This document shows positions 406 to 11,533 of a stretch of 11,947 nt of DNA, piece after piece. Under the pieces are notes generated by a model. It worked only from the letters and a program-made list of their open reading frames with translations, was not told where the DNA came from and made no database searches. Where the stretch lies: contig JAITQZ010000096.1 of the NCBI GenBank assembly GCA_031288635.1, forward strand, positions 1 to 11,947, given 5' to 3'. Position 1 is the stretch's first letter, and each line of letters opens with the position of its first letter. The DNA comes from Candidatus Peribacteria bacterium. Lineage in GTDB: Bacteria > Patescibacteria > JAEDAM01 > Absconditabacterales > Absconditicoccaceae. Position numbers and translations under genes: made by a program.

Positions 406-3400
406 TTATGCTATAACGATATTCATAATTTTTCATGGTAGGTAAATTATTTTTTTTACTTCACTAGTAGTTAGGTAGGTATTTAGTTTTTCTGTGCCTT
501 TTATTAGCTCCAAAACTTTTTCCTGACTGGCAGTTGGTGAGACTTCAAGGGTTCCGCGGACTTTTCCGTTGAACTGGATAGCAAGGATTACGGTGTCGGA
601 AATCAGCTTTGTTTCGTCTCGTTGGGGTCGTTTTGCTTTGGTGAAGATAGAGAATTTGTTGCCTAGGAGGCTTCGAAATTCTTCGGCAAGATGGGGTGCA
701 AAGGGTGCAAGGAGGATGATGAAGGTTTCAAAAAGCTGACGGCTAATGGTGTTTTGCTCGCTGAGGGCGTTTGCTAAAATCATAAATTGCGAAATGGTGG
801 TGTTGAAACGGAAGGCGTCGATGTCTTCGGTCGTTTTTTTGATGGTTTGATGGAGGAGGGTTTCGATGTGTTTGGGGGCTGTAACGGTTTTTTGGGGTAT
901 TTCAACCCCGCTGGTCGCGGGGTTCGGACGAGGCACCCCGCAGTTTTGCGGGGTTCAGCCATCGTCCCTACTGTCATCGTTCGTTATCGGACGGTTTATT
1001 GAACCGTCCCTACATTGGGTGTTGTTGTTTGGATGGGTTAATGATGTATCTACTTTGTCCCGTAATGCTACGACTTTATCCAAAAACTTTCTCACTCCTT
1101 TCAATCCGTTGGTATTTCGTGAAATGAATTGGTCAAAGGGTCCCATAAACATTTCGTACATTCTGAATGCGTCAGCTCCATATTCGGCGATGACGTCATC
1201 GGGATTGACGACATTTCATCGTCTTTTCGACATTTTACGACCGTCTTGTGCCATAATGAGTCAGACTTTTTCATATCTTTGAAAAGGTTCTTGTTGGCTG
1301 ACGACACCAATGTCATAGAGGAATTTTTGCCAAAATCTTGCGTAAATCATATGTCTGGTTACGTGTTCTGCACCACCAACATAGACATCTACGTTTTTTC
1401 GATAGTGTTCGTTTTCTTTGTTGACTAGGGTTTGGTCATTTTTCGGGTCCATATATCTTAATCGGTACCGACTGGAACCTGCTCGTCCGGGCATGGTGTT
1501 GCTTTCTCTTTTTGCTTCGTTTCAGCAGATGGGACATGTTGTTTTCATTCGCCAATCTACATCATCCAAGGGCCCTTCTTCTCTGCCGGTCGGTTCGTAA
1601 TTGTCAATGTCTGGTAGAGTGAGAGGTAAAGCTGATTCTGGAAGTGGATTGACTTTACTAATATCGATTAGTTCAAACCTTCGTCCAACGAGTCCGTTAG
1701 TTTCTATTTTTTCTATATATCACGGAGTGAAGTTGTAGTGTTCTTTGAGGTCTTCAACAGTCTTTACCGATTTGAATTGTTGTTTGTTTCGATAAATTTC
1801 TGCTAAGGTAGGAGCAGTAAAGAGTTCTTCAAAGTTTTTTCGTTCAAATTTTTCTGTGATTTTTGCATACAGTACTTCATTAGTTTCTTTATTTACCATT
1901 TTTAGAACCTCACCAACTTTTATATTCCCAAAATATCTTTCTGGTTCTTCAGGGTTTAATGCTCTGGTTTCTATGGTTTTTTTTTGGGTTTTTATCCCTT
2001 CTCGGGTGTCTTGGTCATAGAAGTTGATGGTATGCAGTTTACCCCCCTTCTGAAGGGGGGCTTCTCCGCAATGTTTACAAAACACTACAGGAAATGGTTC
2101 ACCCCAATATCTTTGGCGAGAAAACACCCAATCCTGAATTTTATAATTGCTTTTTTCTCCTCCGAGGTTTCTTTCTGCGAGTCGTTGTTGCATTGCTTTG
2201 ATGGCTTCATCGCTCGTTAGTCAGGTGAAGTCTCAGGAGTTTATCAATCTTCACTTTTCACAAAAAGCAGTCTCTCATTCCACGAAAGCCTTAATTCAAG
2301 TAAGATTGTCTTTATGAGTCACTTGTTCCAATGCTTCTTGATAAGTCAACCATATTGCCTCTTGTTTTTCCTTTTCTTCATCCGCAACACTCAGAGGTGT
2401 TTCATCAATAAGTTCCAGCACAACATCGTGAGTAATCTTTTGCCTCCAGACATTCTTATTTTCTGCAAAGAAATTGCTTTCTGCTATTCGTCAAATAGTG
2501 TGGAGGGCTTTTGTTTTGTATCCTGTTTCTTCCAATACTTCTCTTTCTGCTGCCTGTAAAGGAGTTTCTCCTTCATCAATACCTCCTACTATTGGTGCAA
2601 TCCAACCGAATTTTTTGAACCTCACAAATAAAAACTTTCCATCTGATTTTCTCTGAATAACTGCGTTTATCGTTTCCCTACGTTCAGCCTTTTCATTTGG
2701 TGTTCATTCTATGGGCATAATACTTTGTACAATCGGAATATCGTACTTTTTCGCAAATTCAAAATCTCTTTCATCGTGAGCGGGAACTGCCATTACTACT
2801 CCCGTTCCGTAGTTTGCTAAGACATAATCACCGATGAAGATTGGAACTTCTTTTCCGCTGAATGGATTTATCGCGTAAGCTCCCGTAAATTGTCCGGTTT
2901 TCTCCTTTTGGAGTTCGGTTCTTTCGAGTTGGGTTTTGTATTTTGCTTGCTGTTTGTAGGCTTCAACGGGTTCGCGGTATTCATCGGTGGTGATTTGGTC
3001 AACCAATGGGTGTTCTGGTGCCATTACGACGAAGGTCATCCCGAAGACGGTATCTATACGGGTGGTAAAGACTCTGAACTTCCCTCCTTCTGAAGGAGGG
3101 GTAGGGGAGGTTCGTCCAGAGAGTTCATTTTGTACTGAACCCCCCGTCGCTTCGCTCCTTCCCCCCTTCATAAGGGGGGTTGCAACAACCATTTCAAATT
3201 CTGTTCCACTACTTTTTCAAATCCGATTTCTTTCTAATTCTTTCATACTTTCGTCCCAATGTAATTCGTCCAATCCTTCCAATAATCTATCTGCATATTT
3301 CGTAATTCTCAATACCCATTGTCTCATCGGTCTTTGCTCAACTTCACTGCCACATCTTTCACATTTTCCGTCTTCCAAATCTTCGTTTGCGAGTCCAGTT

Positions 3401-3954
3401 TTGCAATGTGGACATCGGTTGATGGGTTTGTAGTCAATGTAGGCTAAACGAACGTCGTTAGGATTTTCTCCTTTGTATTCGGAAATGGGGCGAGCCTGCT
3501 TTTTCTCCTCATCGTAATAATGAGTATAGAGCTGCAAGAATATCCATTGTGTCCACTTGAAATACTCAGGGTCAGCAGTACTAAAGCTTCTCTCTCGGTC
3601 ATAGGAAAATCAGATTTTTTCTAATTGTTGTTTATAATAAGTGATATTTTTGGTTGCAACATCTTGGGGTTTCATTTTATTGTCTATAGCATATTGTTCT
3701 GTTCCCAGTCCGAACGTGTCGAATCCCATAGGATGAAGTACAGAAAAACCTTCTAACATTTTTTTTCTAGCTAGCGTATCAGTAGCAACAAATCCTTTCG
3801 GGTGTCCTACGTGTAATCCTGCTCCTGAAGGATATGGAAACATATCTAAAATATAAAATTTTGCTTTCTGCGGGTCTTCGGCGACTTTGTAGACTTGTTC
3901 GGAAGCCCGTTTTTCTTGTCGTTTCTTTTCCATTGCGTTGAAGTTGATTTGCAT
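406..3954 (-). CDS. leuS: Leucyl-tRNA synthetase with inserted Nudix domain (recoded, 15 in-frame UGA)
   Basis: Charges tRNA-Leu with leucine in the cytoplasm (class Ia synthetase). Read with UGA=Gly it is one frame of 1182 codons from ATG at 3954 to TAA at 406, far longer than the usual 800-900. In order: class I motif HVGHP (residue 48), 'IGFSYD' (115), zinc knuckle CPHC/CERC (181-201), 'RNWIGKSSG' entering the editing domain, '[10 protein letters not shown]' and '[10 protein letters not shown]', a Nudix domain (about 427-565, complete Nudix box 457-479), 'NSGDFTGL', '[11 protein letters not shown]', 'AGSSWYWLRY', KMSKRWGN (variant of KMSKSKGN), anticodon-binding domain, and the C-terminal tail '[12 protein letters not shown]', which is reached only by reading through TGA at 433-435. 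At least 12 CGA/CGG codons fall on family tryptophans. Three palindromic insertions interrupt loops without breaking the frame. No Shine-Dalgarno sequence upstream. Confidence 0.97.
904..1013. repeat. Triple-hairpin palindromic insertion inside leuS
   Basis: Three perfect hairpins lie in a row: AACCCCGC/GCGGGGTT (904-911, 917-924), ACCCCGCA/TGCGGGGT (935-942, 947-954) and GGACGGTT/AACCGTCC (989-996, 1002-1009). The 9-mer CGTCCCTAC occurs twice (963-971, 1005-1013). The block is GC-rich in an AT-rich gene and encodes about 36 residues with no counterpart in LeuRS, in a loop of the anticodon-binding domain just before '[12 protein letters not shown]'. It keeps the reading frame. Confidence 0.75.
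2042..2060. repeat. Short palindromic insertion inside leuS
   Basis: CCCCCCTTCTGAAGGGGGG is a perfect 9-bp palindrome around a single T. In the leuS frame it adds 'APLQKGG' just after the 'FCKHCGE' knuckle that follows 'RYWGEPFP'. Its core (CCTTCTGAAGG) is shared with the 3082-3100 palindrome. Confidence 0.65.
3082..3181. repeat. Composite palindromic insertion inside the leuS editing domain
   Basis: Two perfect palindromes, CCCTCCTTC-T-GAAGGAGGG (3082-3100) and CCCCCCTT-CAT-AAGGGGGG (3161-3179), flank a GC-rich linker. Together they encode about 35 low-complexity residues (TPLMKGG...[10 protein letters not shown]) placed directly before the conserved editing-domain strand '[10 protein letters not shown]'. 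Such PPSEGG-type translations are typical of small intergenic palindromic repeats that have entered a gene in frame. Confidence 0.7.
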
Positions 3955-4004
3955 CGTGAATTCGAAAAAATATAAAGAATGTAGTAAAAATACTCTTTAT
4001 GGGG

Positions 4005-4032
4005 TTGAAATCAAGATGAAAATACCTATAGA
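4005..4032 (+). promoter_or_regulatory. Putative sigma70-type promoter, near-leaderless
   Basis: TTGAAA (4005-4010), a 16-nt spacer and TATAGA (4027-4032) precede the ATG at 4039 by only 6 nt, so transcription would begin at or next to the start codon. It lies in the 84-bp region between the divergent leuS and acidic-protein genes. Confidence 0.45.
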
Positions 4033-4038
4033 AAAGGT

Positions 4039-4446
4039 ATGCGTATTTCTCTATTTCATAAACCCGCTTTGTATTGGACCTTGTTAGCGATAGTGCTTTT
4101 GGCTCTCGCTGGGGGATTTTGGTATGTAAATGCTTTCCATTCGGCGTCTGAAAAAGCTGAAAAAAATGCTGTGGTATTGGTGACTGAAACTGCACCTACA
4201 GAAGTAGAAGTGGTTTTGGGAGGAGAGGTTTCTGAGGAAGAAATGGTGAATGAAGAAGTAGGAGAGGAGAGTAATCTTGTTTCTCAAGTGCAACCAACGG
4301 TGGAAAAAGCTGAACTGCCAAAAGAATTGCCTTCAGAGGAGACTTTTGAAGAGATTGGACTGCTAGAAAATGACCTTTCAGAGTGAGCGGATGAAGAAAT
4401 AGAAGTTATTTTTGAATGTGAGACGGGTGATGAAGGGCGAGAATAG
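4039..4446 (+). CDS. Acidic single-pass membrane-anchored protein, unknown function
   Basis: 135 residues. A basic N-terminus (MRISLFHK) leads into one transmembrane segment (about 11-31, rich in L/A/G), followed by a very glutamate-rich tail presumably outside the membrane. The frame passes one TGA (4384-4386, Gly) and ends at TAG 4444-4446; stopping at the TGA would lose the last 20 codons, which continue the same acidic composition (ADEEIEVIFECETGDEGRE). It is divergent from leuS and convergent with the next minus-strand gene, whose stop lies only 6 bp away. No domain recognised; the tail looks disordered and could be a cell-envelope spacer or a partner for a basic surface. Confidence 0.65.
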
Positions 4447-4452
4447 CCTGTT

Positions 4453-5304
4453 TTACTCAATCATTTCTTTTTCAATCATTTTCTTTCCATAACGGAATAC
4501 TTTAACAGGCTTTAACAGGAGGAATATTAGAAAGCCGATTACACTGATGACTCGCAGTAAGATTTTGAAAACTCCGATTAAAATAAAGTACATTAGTGCT
4601 ATTACCGCCAATTGAAAACCTTCATTTACTTGGGTAGTTTTGAGTTTTCCCATTAGAAATTCACAACTATTTTTACTGATTGAATCGCTCAGCTCTCCGA
4701 CTTGGGAAGTGAAAAAAGATTTTGTGTTTTCAAAAAATTGTTCGATTTCAGATTTTTCTGGTTGTGAGGGGGAGGTGGTTTTGATAGGAGTTTTATTAGG
4801 GGTCAGCTTTTTGAACATTTCGCTTCCTACGAGTTGGTCGGAAAACTGTATTAAATCTTCGCACGTGAAAGGGATTGCGGAGTATCTCCCGAGCATTAAT
4901 ACACTAAAGAATAGGGTTAAAATTGCTGCAATGGTGTATCCTCCTTCCGTAAAGTAAGCGAATGCTGAGAAACGGATTCTATTTTTTAGTTGGAGAAAGA
5001 GGAAAAAAAGCAGGAGCCCGATTGCGAGGTTAAACAGAAGGATTTCTCCATAGGAATGTCGCGTCTCTCCTCCTAAAAAGATTCATTCCCCGATGGTCAA
5101 GAGGAATACTACTATCCGTATCTTTCGATGGCGAAGTGGATACAAGTCAATTGCGAGAAAGTACAGCGAAAGAAAAAGCACAATAAAGCTGACTAACGGA
5201 ATTAAAATAGTGTTTGTTGCAAACAAGGTAAATATACACATTCCGTAAGCAAGCAAGGTTAGGAGTCCTGTAAGTGTGAAACGGACTTTTTTATGGAGGG
5301 TCAT
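4453..5304 (-). CDS. Multi-pass membrane protein of unknown function, operon with prepilin peptidase
   Basis: 283 residues from ATG 5304 (GTG at 5307 is also possible) to TAA 4453-4455, with one TGA read as Gly (5083-5085). The N-terminal half holds about five hydrophobic segments (around residues 10-30, 33-53, 63-73, 90-107 and 120-137). A soluble middle part of about 80 residues follows (from 'CEDLIQFSDQ' to 'KTTQVNEGFQ'), then two more hydrophobic segments and a basic tail with KKMIEKEMIE. It begins within 3 nt of the stop of the prepilin peptidase, so the two are almost certainly co-transcribed and translationally coupled. The context suggests a role near the pilus or secretion machinery, but there is no family match I can name. 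Confidence 0.7.
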
Positions 5305-5307
5305 CAC

Positions 5308-6150
5308 TTATGAGGGGGTAAGTAAAACGTGGAGTATTTCTTTTCCGTAGCGTATCAAAATGAGGAATGCAACAATCATTCCAGGCAGGAAAGGAAGGTT
5401 TGATGGTGTTGCGTTCTTATGGAGGGCGAAAAGGAGCATAAACGAAAACAGACAGGAGATGATGAGATAGCTAGAAAGGAAGTAGACCCGTTCCACGACG
5501 GATGAAAGAGGAAGAAAGACTTGTATTACGCTTCCCAATATTCCTGCAGCTAGTACATCGCCAAATCCAAATCCTTCAGCCTTTTTTTTGTATTTTATGT
5601 ATGCTATTGCTTTGCCTAAAAAGTAAATGACGAGGAATACGCAGAAAAAAATTACGGTTCCTTGCAATGCTTTCCGTAGGTTGTAGCCTCGTCCTCGTTG
5701 AGAGCAGAAAGACAGGAGGAGAAAAAGCAGACTGGCGGTGAGATGAAGTTCGTATTGTTTTAGGTCATACAATGCGATGAGAAATAGCAACCATATTCCT
5801 ATGGTGGGGATACTGGCTTGTTGTATTCGTTCTGTTGGTTGTGGCATTCCTAGTGTTCGTCGTGTCCCTAGGAAGATTATTACGGTTCAGATTTCTAAAG
5901 TTGGGTACCATCGAGAGAGTTTGGTGTTGCAATAACGGCATTTCCCCTTTTGAGAGAAGAAGCTTCGGAGCGGGAGTAAATCTGTTGTTCATAGGGTATG
6001 ATGGCAATGTCTACATTCCGAGCGACCAAAGAAAAAGCCTTTCAATGTCTGTCGATTTGGCAATTCTCCCAAACGAAAAAAAATCACGGACCCAAAGGAG
6101 CCAAAAACCAGACCTAAGAGGATGAGCAGGAGAATATTGAGCGGGAGCAT
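5308..6150 (-). CDS. pilD: Type IV prepilin peptidase (A24 family)
   Basis: Membrane aspartyl protease that cleaves the leader of type IV prepilins or pseudopilins and usually N-methylates the new N-terminus. 280 residues from ATG 6150 to TAA 5308, with two TGA read as Gly (5989-5991, 5887-5889). The N-terminal helix has the family 'GxxxGSFxxV' pattern (VFGSFGSVIFFRL). The cytoplasmic zinc loop follows: CRHC...'TTDLLPL'...CRYC with 'SWWYPTLE', where a CGA gives the Trp of the family 'SWxYPxvE'. The two active-site aspartates are plausible in 'LYDLKQYEL' and 'GFGFGDV'. About seven to eight hydrophobic helices are present, as expected. A TTG at 6243 would extend it but adds residues before the usual N-terminus. 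Read with the standard code it breaks into three fragments. Confidence 0.9.
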
Positions 6151-6218
6151 AGAGATTGGGGGATGATAAAATGATTTTTTATATGGAGTGAAGAAAAGAA
6201 TTTTTGAGATACTATTTC

Positions 6219-6519
6219 TTATTCTTTTTGTAGATATTCTCAAGAAGATAAATCGTCTCGTAAGGGGTTATTTTCTTCAGTTAAAGCAATTTTTTTTGCT
6301 CTTGACCGTCATTTTATCTTTTTTTCACAAGCAATAGCATCAGTGATTAAGTCGAATGTTTGAAACCAAACCAAACGATGGATATGGTACTTTTTAGTAA
6401 ATCATTCATTTTCTTCTCTTTTATGTTGTTGGACTCTTTTATGAAGGTTAGAAGTTACACCAACGTATAAGATTCCTTATTTTTTACTTGCTAGGATATA
6501 TATATCAATATCTTTTCAT
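6219..6519 (-). pseudogene. GIY-YIG family endonuclease, decayed
   Basis: Single-domain GIY-YIG nuclease of the about 100-residue class. The body is nearly intact in one frame from 6476 to TAA 6219-6221: 'GILYVGVTSNLHKR', 'GFTKKYHIHRLVWF', 'AIACEKKIKGWSRAKKIAL', 'NPLWDDLSS'. Upstream, 'YILASKK' runs into TAA at 6477-6479, and the likely ATG (6519-6517) is out of frame by 2 nt across a TATATATAT run, consistent with loss of one TA unit. So the gene has one nonsense codon and one frameshift. It is valuable as evidence for the code: TGA gives the Gly of 'GFTKKY' and 'KGW', CGG the Trp of 'KGW' and CGA the Trp of 'NPxW'. Sequencing error could explain the defects but would need two. Confidence 0.75.
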
Positions 6520-6582
6520 TAGTATAAGGAGAGGTAAAAGATTTATAGAAGTATTGTTATTCTTTTGGGAGAAGGATTTTTA

Positions 6583-6640
6583 TCTACAGAGATTCTTCAC
6601 TATGGCTCGCAAGCGTCGCCTCCGTTCAGAATGACGAGCC
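6583..6640. repeat. Short intergenic repeat, related to the copy near 11790
   Basis: TCTACAGAGATTCTTCACTA (6583-6602) matches 11790-11809 with one difference. It is followed by GGCTCG (6604-6609) and CGAGCC (6635-6640), which form a closing stem around a GC-rich loop containing TTCAGAATGACG. The whole resembles the 'GATTCTTCACT...TTCAGAATGAC' intergenic repeats seen in many bacterial genomes. The rest of the 6520-6698 gap shows an ATTGAA/TTCAAT hairpin (about 6668-6687) and two AGAGGTCT copies, but no gene. Confidence 0.55.
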
Positions 6641-6698
6641 CCTAGAAGAGGTCTCGATTCTTTTGTCATTGAATGGTAAAGTTCAATAAAAGAGGTCT

Positions 6699-7481
6699 TT
6701 AAGATTTCACTTTGTTTCTCGGAATGGCGATATGCGAGGAGGAACGTTTCATTCTGGCACTAATGACTTTTGAAATATTATAACAGAGTTCACTCAGGAG
6801 GTACATTTGGTGGAGGGAAATGACTTTCCACAGTGAAATGCCTGCTTTTAGGGTGGAAAAATCAATCTCTGCATCACAGACGTAGTCTGGAGAGCCTTCT
6901 CGTTCGGGTAAATGTTCTTTGTAGACGAAATGGAGACGGATTTTTTTTATTGCGGTTTTTTTCTGTCCTTTGGGGTCTTTTTTACTTGCGAGGAAAATTT
7001 TCTGTTTTTGGAAATCTTCTGCTTGGATGAGGAGTGATGGGGTACTAGAATGGCTTAGCACATTACGCAGAAAACGGATGGTTTGCTCAAATGCGAGATA
7101 TTGTTCGTTGAAAATGGTTTTTAAGGTGTTGCGAAAGGTGGGGACATTTTCTATCATCTCTCTCATTACGGAAAAAATCCCACGGAAAGCAGAGATTTCT
7201 GTGAGATAGCCAAAAACATTTTTGGAAGTAGAATGTTTGTGGATTTCGGAGAGTAAGGAAGATGTTAATTCTGCATTGATAGCAAAGGTACTATGTTCTC
7301 CTGTAGGAATACTGAGATGATGAGGGAGAGAGAGTAGTCTGCTTTTTGCTTGAGCTTCAAAAAACTTTCCGAGAGAGAGAAATTTGTAATACCCTTGTAA
7401 GAGTTCTAGATAAGCGAGCATTAGGGAAAGAAAGATAAAAATTACTAGCAATATACGTATTTTTTCAGAAATTACTAGCAA
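6699..7481 (-). CDS. Membrane-anchored protein with HEPN-like RNVLSH motif
   Basis: 260 residues from a TTG at 7481 to TAA 6699-6701; no ATG exists in frame upstream, so the start is provisional. An N-terminal transmembrane segment (about 10-30) is followed by a mostly helical soluble domain. R139-N140-V-L-S-H144 fits the R-x4-H signature of HEPN ribonuclease domains, with helices before it (YLAFEQTIRFL) and a later 'EIDFSTLKAGISLWKVISL' segment. HEPN proteins are often toxins or defence and RNA-cleaving factors, but membrane anchoring is unusual and the motif alone is weak evidence. The motif Arg is CGT, so it stays Arg in this code. Divergent from the Cys-module gene, 113 bp apart. An in-frame 13-nt direct repeat (7439-7451, 7469-7481) duplicates 'LLVI' at the N-terminus. 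Confidence 0.6.
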   Translation of the reverse strand: MLVISEKIRILLVIFIFLSLMLAYLELLQGYYKFLSLGKFFEAQAKSRLLSLPHHLSIPTGEHSTFAINAELTSSLLSEIHKHSTSKNVFGYLTEISAFRGIFSVMREMIENVPTFRNTLKTIFNEQYLAFEQTIRFLRNVLSHSSTPSLLIQAEDFQKQKIFLASKKDPKGQKKTAIKKIRLHFVYKEHLPEREGSPDYVCDAEIDFSTLKAGISLWKVISLHQMYLLSELCYNISKVISARMKRSSSHIAIPRNKVKS

Positions 7482-7535
7482 ATCTTTTTGTAGGGGGCAG
7501 ATTTCTGGGTAGGAGTAAAAAATCTTTCAAAAAAG

Positions 7536-7564
7536 TTGCTTTTTTTTGCATTCTCGGATATACT
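7536..7564 (+). promoter_or_regulatory. Putative sigma70-type promoter with 5'-UTR hairpin
   Basis: TTGCTT (7536-7541), a 17-nt spacer and TATACT (7559-7564) lie 30 bp before the ATG at 7595. A CTAAAG/CTTTAG hairpin (7563-7568, 7572-7577) overlaps the expected transcription start. It lies in the 113-bp divergent region with the HEPN-like gene; no clear promoter was found for the opposite direction. Confidence 0.55.
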
Positions 7565-7594
7565 AAAGAGACTTTAGATTTTAGTAAAATTCTG

Positions 7595-8977
7595 ATGAAA
7601 GAATTTCTCTCCCCTCCCAAGAAAAAAATACCGTTTTCCCAGAAGTTTTTGGGAAAAACAAAGTTTCATATTAGAAAACCTTTGGAATGTTCTGTAGGAG
7701 GTGTGTGGACGAGATGGGGAATTTATGGATTGATTGTGTTTTTCTGTGGGGTAGTCGTGTTTCATTTTCACCCAGCAAGTAATCAAAAATTTCAGTCTCA
7801 ATTTGAAAAAAAGGAAACAGGCGTTTCTCAGCTGGCTTATCTTTTTTATGATGCGGAGGGAAATGTTTATGATGTTTTTGGCACTCAAGGTGAACACGGT
7901 GTTCCTCAGTCTTGGGAGTATCTTTTTGAAGGGGTAGAAGTGATGACAGGGAATGATGAGTCTGCTCCTGAAATTCAAGTTCCTGTACAGGAAGAGACTC
8001 AGTTTTCTACGGGGAGTCAGTCTTCTTCTGTTTCTGCTACTGGGACGGTAAGTACGCTTCCAAAGCCTTCCGATTCGCTTCCTGCTGATGGAGAGCCAGA
8101 GAATGTTGATTTACCTGTAGCAAAAGTGTTTCCTTATGCAGAAAAGGGGGTCGTGTGAGGGGCGTTTTTTAGTGGTGAGAAGTCTGCATTGTCAGGGGTG
8201 CTTGAGGATGTTGATGGTCTAGGGGTGCATATTATTGAAGACTACAAAACGTGTGCTACGCCTTGGGGGTATCAGTTGGCTCACTGAGAAAGTGTTTTAG
8301 CGTATCAACAAGATATGCCCACTCCAGATACGTGTAAAATTGAGAGGAGAATTTGTTTTGATGGGAAACTTTCTGGCTCTTTTGGGCAACAGTCTTGTGC
8401 TACCAATACGAAGTATTCGTATTTTCAGGAACAATTTGTGAGTTATAATACTCCTCAAAAATCGGCTCCCGTTGTCCATCCGTGAAATACTGCAGCAAAT
8501 GTTTCTGATGGTAGCGTGAAAAGCTGAATTGAGGAAATTCTGGAGGTACCAAATCCTAGCGAAACTTCGTGGAAAGGGTCTCAATATCCTTTAGCTACTC
8601 CTGCAAAGGAAGTAGAACAGACTACTAGACCTTCTTTAGACTGTAAAGCTCCGTGGGGAGAAATTGTGAAACAGGGACAATTTGTGAAAGCGTATAAGCA
8701 CAAAAATGGGTTTAATGATGCTCCGTGTGAGGTACAGTTGAGGACGTGTGCTGTAGGAAAATTGGAAGGAAATTATGAGCAACTGTATTGTAGGAGTCGG
8801 GATATTTCTTATATTGATTGGTTAAATGGTATTCCAAATTGGGATTTAGGATTTTCTGCAGAGAAATTGAAATGGATTCAAAAGATAAGAGAGAGTGAAC
8901 TCAAGTATCAAAAGGAGTATGGAAATGCTTTGCATAGTGAGGTGTTAGAGCAGATTCTGGCAATTTTGGATACATAA
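7595..8977 (+). CDS. Surface protein with two tandem four-cysteine modules
   Basis: 460 residues from ATG 7595 to TAA 8975-8977, passing four TGA (8156, 8285, 8483, 8525), all read as Gly. A basic N-terminus precedes one transmembrane segment (about 42-58), then a Ser/Thr/Pro/Glu-rich linker, then two copies of the same module. Copy 1 has C220, C247, C254, C268 and copy 2 has C350, C378, C385, C399, giving spacings 27-7-14 and 28-7-14. Both share 'PWG', 'AY', an R before the third Cys, and 'GKLxG'. Even numbers of Cys in a predicted extracytoplasmic part suggest disulfides. A CGG (8798-8800) in 'CRSWD' would be Trp. Function is unknown; adhesion or host contact is a reasonable guess. Followed by a clear terminator. 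Confidence 0.85.
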
Positions 8978-8991
8978 ATCTGTTCTATCAG

Positions 8992-9028
8992 AAAAGGTAT
9001 ATCTAGTCTGATGGAGATACCTTTTTTT
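8992..9028 (+). terminator. Rho-independent terminator of the Cys-module gene
   Basis: AAAAGGTAT (8992-9000) pairs with ATACCTTTT (9017-9025) and continues into a T run, 14 bp after the stop codon. The 9029-9081 remainder is AT-rich leader of the next gene; TTGTTT (9036-9041) is a possible -35 box without a convincing -10. Confidence 0.8.
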
Positions 9029-9081
9029 CTTTCCATTGTTTTTCCCGACTAAAACCATACAACTATCATCAGATTTTTTTT

Positions 9082-10605
9082 ATGTTTTTTATAAATATGA
9101 CGCAAATAAATATGACGCAAACAGCACCTCCTATATTTCCTCCTCTTAAAAAAATTGCTCCTGCTGCTACTTCGCTGGTCAGTTTTCCGTATCACGTTGA
9201 CCTTAAGGAGATGAAAGATTTGGAGAGATATTATATTGGTCATCTGAGTTTTAAGGAGCTGTTGGCATCTGTGCTTTTTAATAAGAAGATTATTTTGGTT
9301 TTTTCTAGTAAGCCGAAACTGGATATTGCAAAAAACCTCCTCTATGATATGGGTATTAAAAATATTTGATTTGCTAGAGAAGAGCAAACGATATCGGGTG
9401 AAAAGTTTCAAAAATTTTTGGGAAAGGAACCGTTTAATCAATTTGAGCTTTATTTTATTCTCAAATACTGTTCCCATTTGTTTCAAGGGTATGGGGTCTT
9501 GGATTTGAATAGTAAAGGAGATTATATGGTGTATAATCTGATTAAGGATGAAAGGCAGGTTGTGAAATATCCGGTAGTTTTGACTACCCATCACGGTTTG
9601 TATTCGATTTTGGAAAAGGACGAGCATACCTATGCAGATTTTGATATTGTATTTTTCGATGTGGAGTGGTGGTATAGAAATTATAATGCATATCTTTCGA
9701 GAACTTGTGATTTGTATTATATTCAGAATTTTGTTGATATGCTGATGTATAAGTATAACAACATTGCTTCTTCCAATGGAGATACTAAAGGCAAGCAGAC
9801 ACTTTCCGATTTCGATATGTTTTTCACGATGTTTCTCGGAATTTTGTGGACGGATACGAAGAAACTTTTTTTGGGGCGTGCGGAGGATGACCTCATTATT
9901 AATCCTCTTGCTAATCATCCTGATTTCTATCAGACGAATTTATTGCTTCCCAAGCTGAAAGCGTTCAAAGAACCTTTGCAAATGACTTTGTCTGAGCAGG
10001 ATTTTCAAACGTTATGGAAGCAAATTGAGCATTTTCTTACGATTACTGAAACGATTGCCAAGGTGCAGAGAAAAATGTATGGGCAGACAGGTTCAGATTT
10101 CTATTTTCTTTTTTCTGAGGACGCAAAATTTACCAATCGAGATGAGTTCAAAGAACTGTTTCATAGAAATCATATTGTTTTTTTGTCCAATCATGAAAAA
10201 GGGTATAAAAAGCTGGTTGAGGCTCCGCTTCCCCCTTTTCGTAGTCTTACACATATTACTACCCTTGGAGGATTGGAGACAAAACTTTCTGAACTGTCCG
10301 CAGCGAAAAATGCTATTTTCATTATTTCGACCGTGAAAGATGAGTCTAGAGAGATTTTTGAGGCTCTGCAGAAAATGCGTTTCCTTGCTGACTATGAATT
10401 ACTCGTGGAGAATATTACGGGGGGAGCAGGAAAAAATATGTATAAAGCCAATAAAAAGCAGAAGAAAATTCTGGTGGGAGGCTATAATTTTCTGATGATG
10501 TGTTATGCCCAGAAAATTCGTTTTGATGAAATTTTGGTGTGGAATGTTAGAGGGTCTAATTCAGAAGTGATTTTAAGTGATGTGAAGTGGTATCAACCGA
10601 AATAA
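9082..10605 (+). CDS. Putative inactive SF2 helicase-like (DinG/XPD-related) protein
   Basis: 507 residues from ATG 9082 to TAA 10603-10605, with one TGA (9367-9369, Gly96). The order of segments recalls DinG/XPD helicases but catalytic residues are missing. 'KKIILVFSSKPKLDIAKNLL' looks like motif Ia, but the stretch before it lacks a GxGKT P-loop ('YYIGHLSFKELLA'). 'VVLTTHHGLYSIL' (about 165-177) resembles the 'VVVTNHALL' motif. 'FDIVFFDVEWW' (D193-V-E-W) sits where a DEAH box is expected. The C-terminal part ('NAIFIISTVKDESREIFEAL', 'ENITGGAGKN', 'KKILVGGYNFLMM') follows the helicase domain 2 order, with the expected motif V 'GTxSFWEG' degenerate. I infer a helicase-derived, probably ATPase-dead protein; it could instead be an unrelated family with chance likeness. 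A tandem 15-nt repeat at the N-terminus leaves the start uncertain by about 10 residues. Confidence 0.7.
9091..9120 (+). repeat. Tandem 15-bp direct repeat at a gene start
   Basis: The unit ATAAATATGACGCAA occurs twice without a gap (9091-9105, 9106-9120) and encodes INMTQ twice. Each copy carries an in-frame ATG (9097, 9112), so the gene has three possible start codons. Confidence 0.85.
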
Positions 10606-10651
10606 GTGTTGTAGGTAGGATGGGGTATTTTATGGGGAATTTACGTAGATG

Positions 10652-11533
10652 TTATTTTATGAAGGCTTTTACAATTCTGATATTAAAATGGAAGGTCTGT
10701 ACCTCTTCAAAGGTCAGTCGGTCTCCAAATTCAGCTTGTAAGATTTCTACTTGTCGGGTCATCATTTCGAGAAACATTGTGAGAGGAAAGAGGAAAGAGG
10801 AAAGTTGAAAGTTTTTGATTTGTTGAAACATCTCTCTATACGGGTCTAGTCCGTCCGTTCCACCGACGAAGGCGAGGCGTGGTTCTCGTTTTTGGACGTT
10901 CTCGAGAGCGTTGGTATCGAAGGTTTCATCGGGGATGTAGGGGAGATTTGCTACTAAAATGAGGTCGGAGGATTGGTTCAGCTGATTTCAGAGTGTTGGT
11001 GAGAGGAAGGAAGCGAGGTTGGATTTGAGGAATTGGGTTTGGTAGGTGGTGGGGTGAGGGATGAGGGTGGTGTAGTTTTTTTTGGCAACGTTTAAGGCTT
11101 CTTCTGAAATATCTGTGAGATAGGCTTTTTGAAAAAAGGTGGGATTTTGGAGAAGGATAGAAATGCCTAGTATTCCAGACCCTGTTCCGATGTCTACCAG
11201 TATTCAGCAATCAGGTTTTTTTTGCTGTTGGATTCGTTCACTGACGGCTGTAATCATATATTCGGTCTCTGGGCGAGGGATGATAGTGTGTTCGTTTACG
11301 AAAAACGGTACTCCGAAAAATTCTACGTTTCCCAGAATGTATTCTAAAGGCTTTTTTTCGATGGTGTAGGCGTGATAGTCTTGTTGGATTTGATGAAGTT
11401 GTTGGTCTGTGAGAGTATCGTCTAGGTGGAGCCATAGTTGTTCTCTCGTTAGTCAGAAGTGAGCTTGGAGGAGTTTTTCCAATACGAATTTTTGTTTGTA
11501 GTCAGGCTGTTGGAGGAGCTGTTGGATGGTCAT
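10652..11533 (-). CDS. prmC: Peptide chain release factor N5-glutamine methyltransferase
   Basis: Methylates the glutamine of the GGQ motif of class-I release factors using S-adenosylmethionine. 293 residues, ATG 11533 to TAA 10652-10654, about the family length. An N-terminal helical domain is followed by the family signature IPRPETE (85-91), the SAM-binding loop 'VDIGTGSGILG' (G116-T-G-S-G120), the catalytic NLPY (196-199), and 'EPRLAFVGGTDGLDPYREM'. Three TGA (11453, 11204, 10988) read as Gly; the one at 11204 lies just before the SAM loop ('CGILVDIG'). The CGA in 'QKWEPRLAF' sits at a position that is usually aromatic, and the Arg of IPRPETE is CGC. Convergent with the helicase-like gene, 46 bp apart, with no obvious terminator between. 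It is not operonic with prfA here, unlike in many bacteria. Confidence 0.95.

Follow-up and report, generated by a model that had tools for sequence, protein, structure and literature searches.

Results

The window analysed here is a stretch of 11,947 nucleotides from a Candidatus Peribacteria bacterium (contig JAITQZ010000096.1), and the gene that concerns us most is leuS, which encodes leucyl-tRNA synthetase (LeuRS) on the minus strand at positions 406 to 3954. Read with TGA as Gly and with CGA and CGG (together CGR) as Trp, it gives a protein of 1182 amino acids that matches the Pfam families tRNA-synt_1_2, tRNA-synt_1 and Anticodon_1 as well as LeuRS entries of the PDB (to 1.3e-175). The gene holds 23 CGA/CGG and 15 TGA codons. 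An earlier note on this DNA had observed CGA and CGG on family tryptophans; that observation is confirmed, and the reading of both codons as Trp is supported by the comparisons below. We propose, with a probability of about 0.97 judged from sequence comparisons, that the organism uses the Absconditabacterial code, in which CGA and CGG would be Trp, CGT and CGC Arg, and TGA Gly. The code change itself is already known and in print (Shulgina and Eddy 2021, PMC8629427; repeated in PMC13092985), as the earlier note had said, and the window is one more user of it.

leuS was aligned to 72 standard-code LeuRS of other bacteria with CGA, CGG and TGA masked as X. The reference panel came from a profile scan of genome contigs with a LeuRS alignment (80 loci among the matches listed, 79 from other bacteria and one from a close relative, L037), of which 72 of 76 LeuRS frames were kept by length. 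Six of the 23 CGA/CGG codons lie inside inserts and 17 have a reference column. Trp is the commonest residue at 13 of these 17 columns, nine of which are 96-100% Trp; the remaining four hold Y (88%), K/R/M (33/22/19%), F (52%) and Y (46%), and Arg is commonest at none of the 17. With 25 Trp-majority columns among 794 aligned, the hypergeometric p for 13 of 17 is 1.6e-18, and in 200,000 random draws none reached 13, the best being 6. Log-likelihoods for CGA (13 sites) were +32.1 as Trp and -32.0 as Arg, and for CGG (4 sites) +7.3 and -11.8. TGG likewise scored best as Trp (+18.2), so that it too is a Trp codon, as had been claimed, whereas CGT, CGC and AGA scored best as Arg and TGA best as Gly, with 8 of 9 TGA codons on Gly-majority columns. 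Of the 27 columns that are at least 50% Arg, 17 hold AGA/AGG/CGT/CGC in the window and none holds CGA/CGG; at its Trp columns CGA/CGG outnumber TGG by 13 to 7.

Every leuS position named in the earlier note carries an in-frame CGA or CGG. All lie on the minus strand: CGA (3919-3921) and CGG (3907-3909) in EKKWQEKW (99-100% Trp columns), CGA in YDW (3595-3597) and in NWCPHC (3415-3417) and CGG in RNWIG (3223-3225), each on a 100% Trp column, CGA at 2182-2184 (60% Trp), CGA at 1483 and CGG at 1468 (74-76% Trp) in GWAGSSWYWLRY, which spans 1462-1485, CGA in SWNTNG (1117-1119, 100% Trp), CGA in EEFWSLLG (673-675, 96% Trp) and CGA at 628 (83% Trp) in KWPQWDE (619-630). Thirteen positions had been listed as family tryptophans, and 11 of them are; the CGA codons at 1462, in GWAGSSWYWLRY, and at 619, in KWPQWDE, fall on columns that are Tyr/Phe in the wider family. 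Two further CGA codons absent from that list, at 1549-1551 and 1399-1401, stand on columns that are 96% and 99% Trp. The conserved arginines were described correctly: SRQRYWG uses CGC and AGA, and FTTRIDT uses CGT.

The protein also carries inserts. A NUDIX domain (PF00293, E 2.4e-13) lies within the CP1 editing region of LeuRS (window 2326-2676, amino acids 427-543). By precomputed Pfam lists, 14 of the 120 listed nearest LeuRS contain PF00293, and titles and abstract openings among the matches listed held no evident report of a NUDIX domain within LeuRS. A second insert of ~130 amino acids (window 1657-2049, amino acids 636-766), presumably ASCH/EVE-like, is common to 4 of 12 aligned relatives (P0003, P0005, P0008 and P0011) and had no match in a Pfam search. 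Two more, at ~3085-3186 and 889-1032, are absent or of other form in aligned relatives, and one has ATPLMKGG stretches. Both resemble inserted repeats that are translated in frame; a repeat search did not pick them out.

We examined LeuRS in relatives of the window. The close relative L037 (uncultured bacterium isolate AlinenLipids_bin-4377) led to genome G001, whose order comprises 49 searchable genomes, and the window LeuRS found a match in all 49. The column test covered 47 loci from 46 genomes (G019, G022 and G030 were left out and G032 has two loci), several of which end prematurely at contig or locus ends. Of 377 CGA sites, 319 fell on Trp-majority columns, as did 28 of 36 CGG sites (347 of 413 pooled). 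Columns with at least 50% Arg contained 722 Arg codons in these proteins and not one CGA or CGG among 1153 cells; a concentration of the two codons at Arg columns was looked for in the relatives and was not seen. At least one CGA/CGG stands at conserved Trp columns in 44 of 47 loci and in at least 43 of 46 genomes. In aligned relatives these columns read R or W, which agrees with the claim that database proteins carry false arginines.

As controls we took the 30 best-matching LeuRS from each of two sister orders, out of 60 and 59 searched genomes. In the sister order with in-frame TGA, 69 of 106 CGA sites lay on Arg columns and none on Trp, and of 38 CGG sites 20 lay on Arg and 1 on Trp; 11 of its 30 LeuRS have no CGA/CGG at alignable sites. 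In the second order, where TGA is a stop, the figures on Arg were 58 of 120 for CGA and 39 of 77 for CGG, with none on Trp. Thus the method is able to return Arg. The single CGG on a Trp column of the first sister order belongs to L416 (genome G114) and possibly represents an independent or leftover CGG -> Trp change; it agrees with a suggestion in print that CGG may mean Trp in some Gracilibacteria.

A quick LeuRS tree pairs the window with G038 (support 92; 83% identity over 652 columns) and places both inside a well supported group made up of 30 rows from the order. Twelve other loci of the order have divergent LeuRS placed elsewhere, so the order's LeuRS do not form one clade in this tree. 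Source-given names among the matches listed include SR1 (P0006), Absconditabacteria (P0032) and Gracilibacteria (P0087).

These counts bear on the idea that CGA and CGG are still Arg and that leuS is a decaying or mis-assembled copy whose Trp codons have mutated to CGA/CGG. A TGG -> CGG change takes one transition, and another gene of the window, GIY-YIG-like, is broken. However, the same replacement recurs at Trp columns in the 44 LeuRS loci counted above, it is found in 137 pooled gene pairs of G042 and G043, two other genomes of the order, and the relatives keep CGA/CGG away from Arg columns while the sister orders display the normal meaning. We consider such decay hardly credible. Chance, a pseudogene and ordinary Arg are contradicted by the LeuRS column counts and by the codon-exchange counts that follow.

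To count codon exchange, we masked CGA, CGG and TGA, aligned homologous genes between relatives and tallied the codon pairs, which needs no reference code. Between G042 and G043 (137 gene pairs), the 157 CGA sites stood opposite TGG 46 times, opposite CGA/CGG 29 times and opposite Arg codons once, while of the 711 AGA sites 447 met Arg codons, two met TGG and one met CGR. Likewise, the 69 CGA and CGG sites of G037 faced TGG 18, CGR 25 and Arg codons 4 times in G043, and the 16 CGA/CGG sites of the window (6 gene pairs, again with G043) faced TGG 3, CGR 9 and Arg codons 0 times. Mutational distance does not account for the exchange, since CGA is one mutation away from AGA and CGT but two away from TGG.

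The tRNA genes of relatives agree with this. The full tRNA set was read for G043, a single contig of 1.18 Mb (40 kb of it N) that holds 37 tRNA genes. Its tRNA-Arg(GCG), with A73, would serve CGT/CGC; tRNA-Arg with UCU and CCU anticodons also have A73, and no tRNA with an ACG anticodon was found on the contig. Its UCG and CCG tRNAs have G73, and the Arg label given to them by ARAGORN comes from the anticodon. By the rules of PMC8629427, G73 without A20 indicates Trp, with A/G1:U72 as support; the two tRNAs follow these rules and should therefore be Trp acceptors.

The earlier note had pointed to a Trp-like tRNA with a UCG or CCG anticodon as the thing to look for, and one with G73 was found in 46 of the 49 genomes of the order: the UCG form in 44 and the CCG form in at least 12, in a non-exhaustive search. 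Detection of tRNA(UCG) used a covariance model, R1; a stricter pattern matched 13 of 49 genomes, with some hits that were not tRNA. G73 was present in all 56 parsed UCG/CCG tRNAs (one CCG tRNA, from G044, was unparsable), with R1:U72 in 49 and G1:C72 in 7, and none of 45 distinct sequences had the Arg-type GGAT D-loop. For comparison, outgroup tRNA-Arg(UCG) have A73 in 28 of 30, GGAT having been required by the search pattern; in one outgroup order this pattern matched 68 of 89 genomes.

Tryptophanyl-tRNA synthetase (TrpRS) is present above the family cut-off as one copy in 45 of 49 genomes, and no match above the cut-off was found in 3; a single TrpRS in most genomes implies that one enzyme must charge CCA, CCG and UCG anticodons. 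Sharing of the work between two TrpRS enzymes was rejected on the one-copy count. G023 is the sole genome of the 49 with two matches above the cut-off. In the mechanism that we propose, a tRNA with G73, mostly R1:U72, and the anticodon UCG (in some genomes also CCG) would be charged with Trp by the usually single TrpRS and would read CGA and CGG, while tRNA-Arg(GCG) would read CGT and CGC.

Several observations weigh against the Trp reading. No tRNA genes were found within the window, and the tRNA evidence comes from its relatives. A CGA/CGG tRNA of Trp type was not found in the fetched sequence of G031, G032 and G049. A canonical tRNA-Arg(UCG), with A73 and GGAT, lies on contig G031:C58 (L159/L380); a normal tRNA-Arg for these codons, which the earlier note had named as evidence against Trp, was looked for in the relatives, and this is the one such gene in the fetched sequence of the order. 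CGR sites do face Arg codons, in 2 of 168 cases for G042 and 4 of 69 for G037, each compared with G043, and CGT sites face CGR in 4 of 37 (G037 versus G042). Against distant bacteria the signal is weaker: in G043, CGA gave 29 Trp and 6 Arg of 90, with TGG at 56 and 15 of 192, and CGG, with small counts, gave 4 Trp and 2 Arg of 17 in G043 and 1 and 1 of 6 in G042.

The distant comparison is nevertheless in line with Trp. The contig G031:C58 carries a Pro-His-Arg-Arg-Leu tRNA cluster with encoded CCA and has a GC content of 0.32, versus 0.25 for L379, and looks like a contaminating contig in the G031 assembly. G031 and G032 themselves have very low GC, 0-1 CGA/CGG in LeuRS and no Trp-type UCG/CCG tRNA in the fetched sequence; an unassigned-codon stage or assembly gaps are possible.

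The CGR sites facing Arg codons could also be taken to mean that part of the order decodes CGA and CGG ambiguously, both as Trp and as Arg, with TrpRS and ArgRS (arginyl-tRNA synthetase) both perhaps accepting the UCG tRNA. TGG sites, however, face Arg codons as well (4 of 176 for G042 and 1 of 79 for G037, versus G043), the UCG/CCG tRNAs have neither of the Arg bases A73 and A20, and ambiguity sits poorly with the 1153 LeuRS cells at Arg columns. We regard ambiguous decoding as very improbable. Together the LeuRS profile test, codon exchange and the relatives' tRNA genes agree on a split CGN box with CGA and CGG as Trp and CGT and CGC as Arg, and on TGA as Gly.

Next to this meaning stands the question of usage. 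At LeuRS Trp columns CGA and CGG together are commoner than TGG in 22 of 47 loci, as common in 2 and rarer in 23, and they are absent in 3. LeuRS is one Trp-rich gene, so these counts are not genome-wide usage. Per 10,000 codons, CGA reaches 47 both in the shared-gene sample of G042 and in the long frames of G043, with TGG at 53 and 70, respectively; the G037 sample has CGA 34, CGG 9 and TGG 48. PMC8629427 places its six species at an early stage: in none does CGA reach 37 per 10,000, and CGG stays below 7 except in a single species. Usage there was counted within Pfam domains, a count that differs from that of the present samples. The accessible portions of PMC8629427 and PMC13092985 do not mention CGA/CGG outnumbering TGG at LeuRS Trp columns. 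The branch of the window is one in which the change of CGA/CGG to Trp is well advanced.

The smaller genes of the window agree with Trp by sequence context. A prepilin peptidase (A24) on the minus strand at 5308-6243 (Pfam A24_N_bact 1.7e-22, Peptidase_A24 2.9e-6) has CGA/CGG codons, including in SWWYP (5902-5916). On the same strand at 6249-6500 lies a broken gene, which we take from its motifs to be GIY-YIG-like, with CGG in KGWSR (6300-6314) and CGA in NPLWDD (6252-6269); the codons of these two motifs are as the earlier note gave them. Both families presumably have Trp at these positions. A prmC-like methyltransferase, also on the minus strand (10652-11533; Pfam PrmC_N 7.6e-7, PrmA 7.1e-7), has four CGA codons read as Trp in context, and the Arg of its IPRPETE motif is indeed CGC. 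An open frame of 507 amino acids on the plus strand (9082-10605) has a single CGA/CGG codon and no match in a Pfam search.

Discussion

The bodies of the CGA/CGG tRNAs suggest that they are re-anticodoned tRNA-Trp. A search of 353 genomes of the class with the tRNA(UCG) model gave matches at E <= 1e-15 in 15 genomes from other orders, 14 to tRNA-Trp(CCA) and 1 to a canonical tRNA-Arg(UCG). All 14 tRNA-Trp(CCA) have a 4-base variable loop, and 7 have the D-stem GTGT/GCAC. These 14 full sequences had been chosen by their likeness to R1, so a pattern-sampled panel was used instead, made of tRNA-Trp fragments, 38 of 45 from the outgroup and 16 of 32 from the order (near-identical or offset rows were left out; the pattern prescribed an initial AGGG and a loop with CTCCAAA). 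Over 36 body positions outside the anticodon, base 37, acceptor and discriminator, 33 of 33 UCG and 11 of 12 CCG tRNAs resemble outgroup tRNA-Trp(CCA) more closely than they do outgroup tRNA-Arg(UCG), and the twelfth is a tie. Furthermore, the variable loop has 4 bases in 45 of 45 UCG/CCG tRNAs and in 37 of 38 outgroup tRNA-Trp, versus 5 in 25 of 30 tRNA-Arg(UCG). With the acceptor stem included and the model-picked Trp panel, 32 of 33 UCG and 10 of 12 CCG tRNAs are nearer Trp, 1 of each is nearer tRNA-Arg(UCG), and one is a tie.

In the opposite origin, the old tRNA-Arg(UCG) would have given rise to these tRNAs by exchanging its identity bases, the route published for AGG -> Met in Bacilli. 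Consistent with it, and against a tRNA-Trp origin, 31 of 33 UCG tRNAs share G37 with 30 of 30 tRNA-Arg(UCG), the anticodon arm CGGTCTTCGGAACCG is common among outgroup tRNA-Arg(UCG), two tRNAs fall on the Arg side once the acceptor stem is counted, and the positions are too few for a supported tree. On the other hand, A37 is kept in 12 of 12 CCG tRNAs, G37 may be selected for reading codons that start with C, and both the bodies and the variable loops side with tRNA-Trp. We consider descent from tRNA-Arg unlikely.

We lean towards a history in which an ancestral tRNA-Trp(CCA) of the class would have been copied while CGA and CGG were scarce, its anticodon passing from CCA to CCG by one base and then to UCG; CGA would later have regained ground, until part of the order used it as a common Trp codon. 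The tRNA-Trp(CCA) that the order itself carries has a different body, with D-stem GCTC and a 5-base variable loop (16 of 16 sampled). It could be that the ancestral tRNA-Trp gene itself took over CGA/CGG by anticodon change, that UGG is now read by this different-body tRNA-Trp, acquired or strongly remodelled, and that the captured codons became the majority at Trp columns in about half of the sampled LeuRS. We hold this to be a tentative proposal, somewhat short of even odds, and rate it no higher because TGG leads in the wider gene samples and because the order's tRNA-Trp(CCA) is of a common body type, nearest on average to tRNA-Lys and tRNA-Arg when the acceptor stem is left aside.

The Discussion of PMC8629427 raises the one-base anticodon step, and the paper demonstrates the reverse route, a recharged tRNA-Arg, for AGG in Bacilli; its accessible portions do not decide between the two for Absconditabacteria. 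The Trp-like body of the CGA/CGG tRNAs was not found in the accessible portions of PMC8629427 or PMC13092985, nor was a publication on the origin of this group's CGR tRNAs found in the literature searched, which leaves preprints and subscription papers outside it.

Among known codes, that of Absconditabacteria (PMC8629427) shares these features with the one seen here: CGA/CGG as Trp, UGA as Gly, CGU/CGC as Arg, UCG/CCG tRNAs with G73 and without A20, and tRNA-Arg(GCG). In the window we find CGR on Trp columns, CGT, CGC and AGA as Arg and TGA as Gly, and in its relatives the UCG/CCG tRNAs with G73 and no A20. The codons are rare in the published species, whereas CGA reaches the 47 per 10,000 of G042 and G043 here, and the window has a GC content of 0.39 versus 0.26-0.38 in the published Absconditabacteria. 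PMC13092985 likewise states that Absconditabacterales decode CGG and CGA as Trp, their CCG tRNAs having 5-bp anticodon stems. Anaerococcus and RFN20 Bacilli (PMC8629427) also reassign CGG to Trp through a Trp-type tRNA(CCG), but in these CGA stays Arg, tRNA(UCG) is missing and UGA is not Gly.

The Gracilibacteria-type code (NCBI table 25), that of the sister order of G100, shares TGA as Gly and differs in that its 30 tested LeuRS have CGA/CGG mainly at Arg columns. As applied here, table 25 alters TGA only and so does not include the CGA/CGG change, as the earlier note had said, and under it CGA/CGG would be Arg, whereas 0 of the 17 alignable window sites are on Arg-majority columns. The Absconditabacterial code has presumably been added since as NCBI table 37. 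Database proteins of the group carry false arginines, and false tryptophans where TGA is read as Trp, so that annotation, trees and models are misled. TGA as Gly and CGR as Trp are separate steps, because two orders share the first and the second was seen in one of them. A CGA-rich order thus stands beside a sister order with TGA as Gly in which CGA/CGG are Arg or absent from LeuRS, so that steps of a sense-codon reassignment can be seen next to each other, and comparison of tRNA bodies makes the origin of the new decoder testable.

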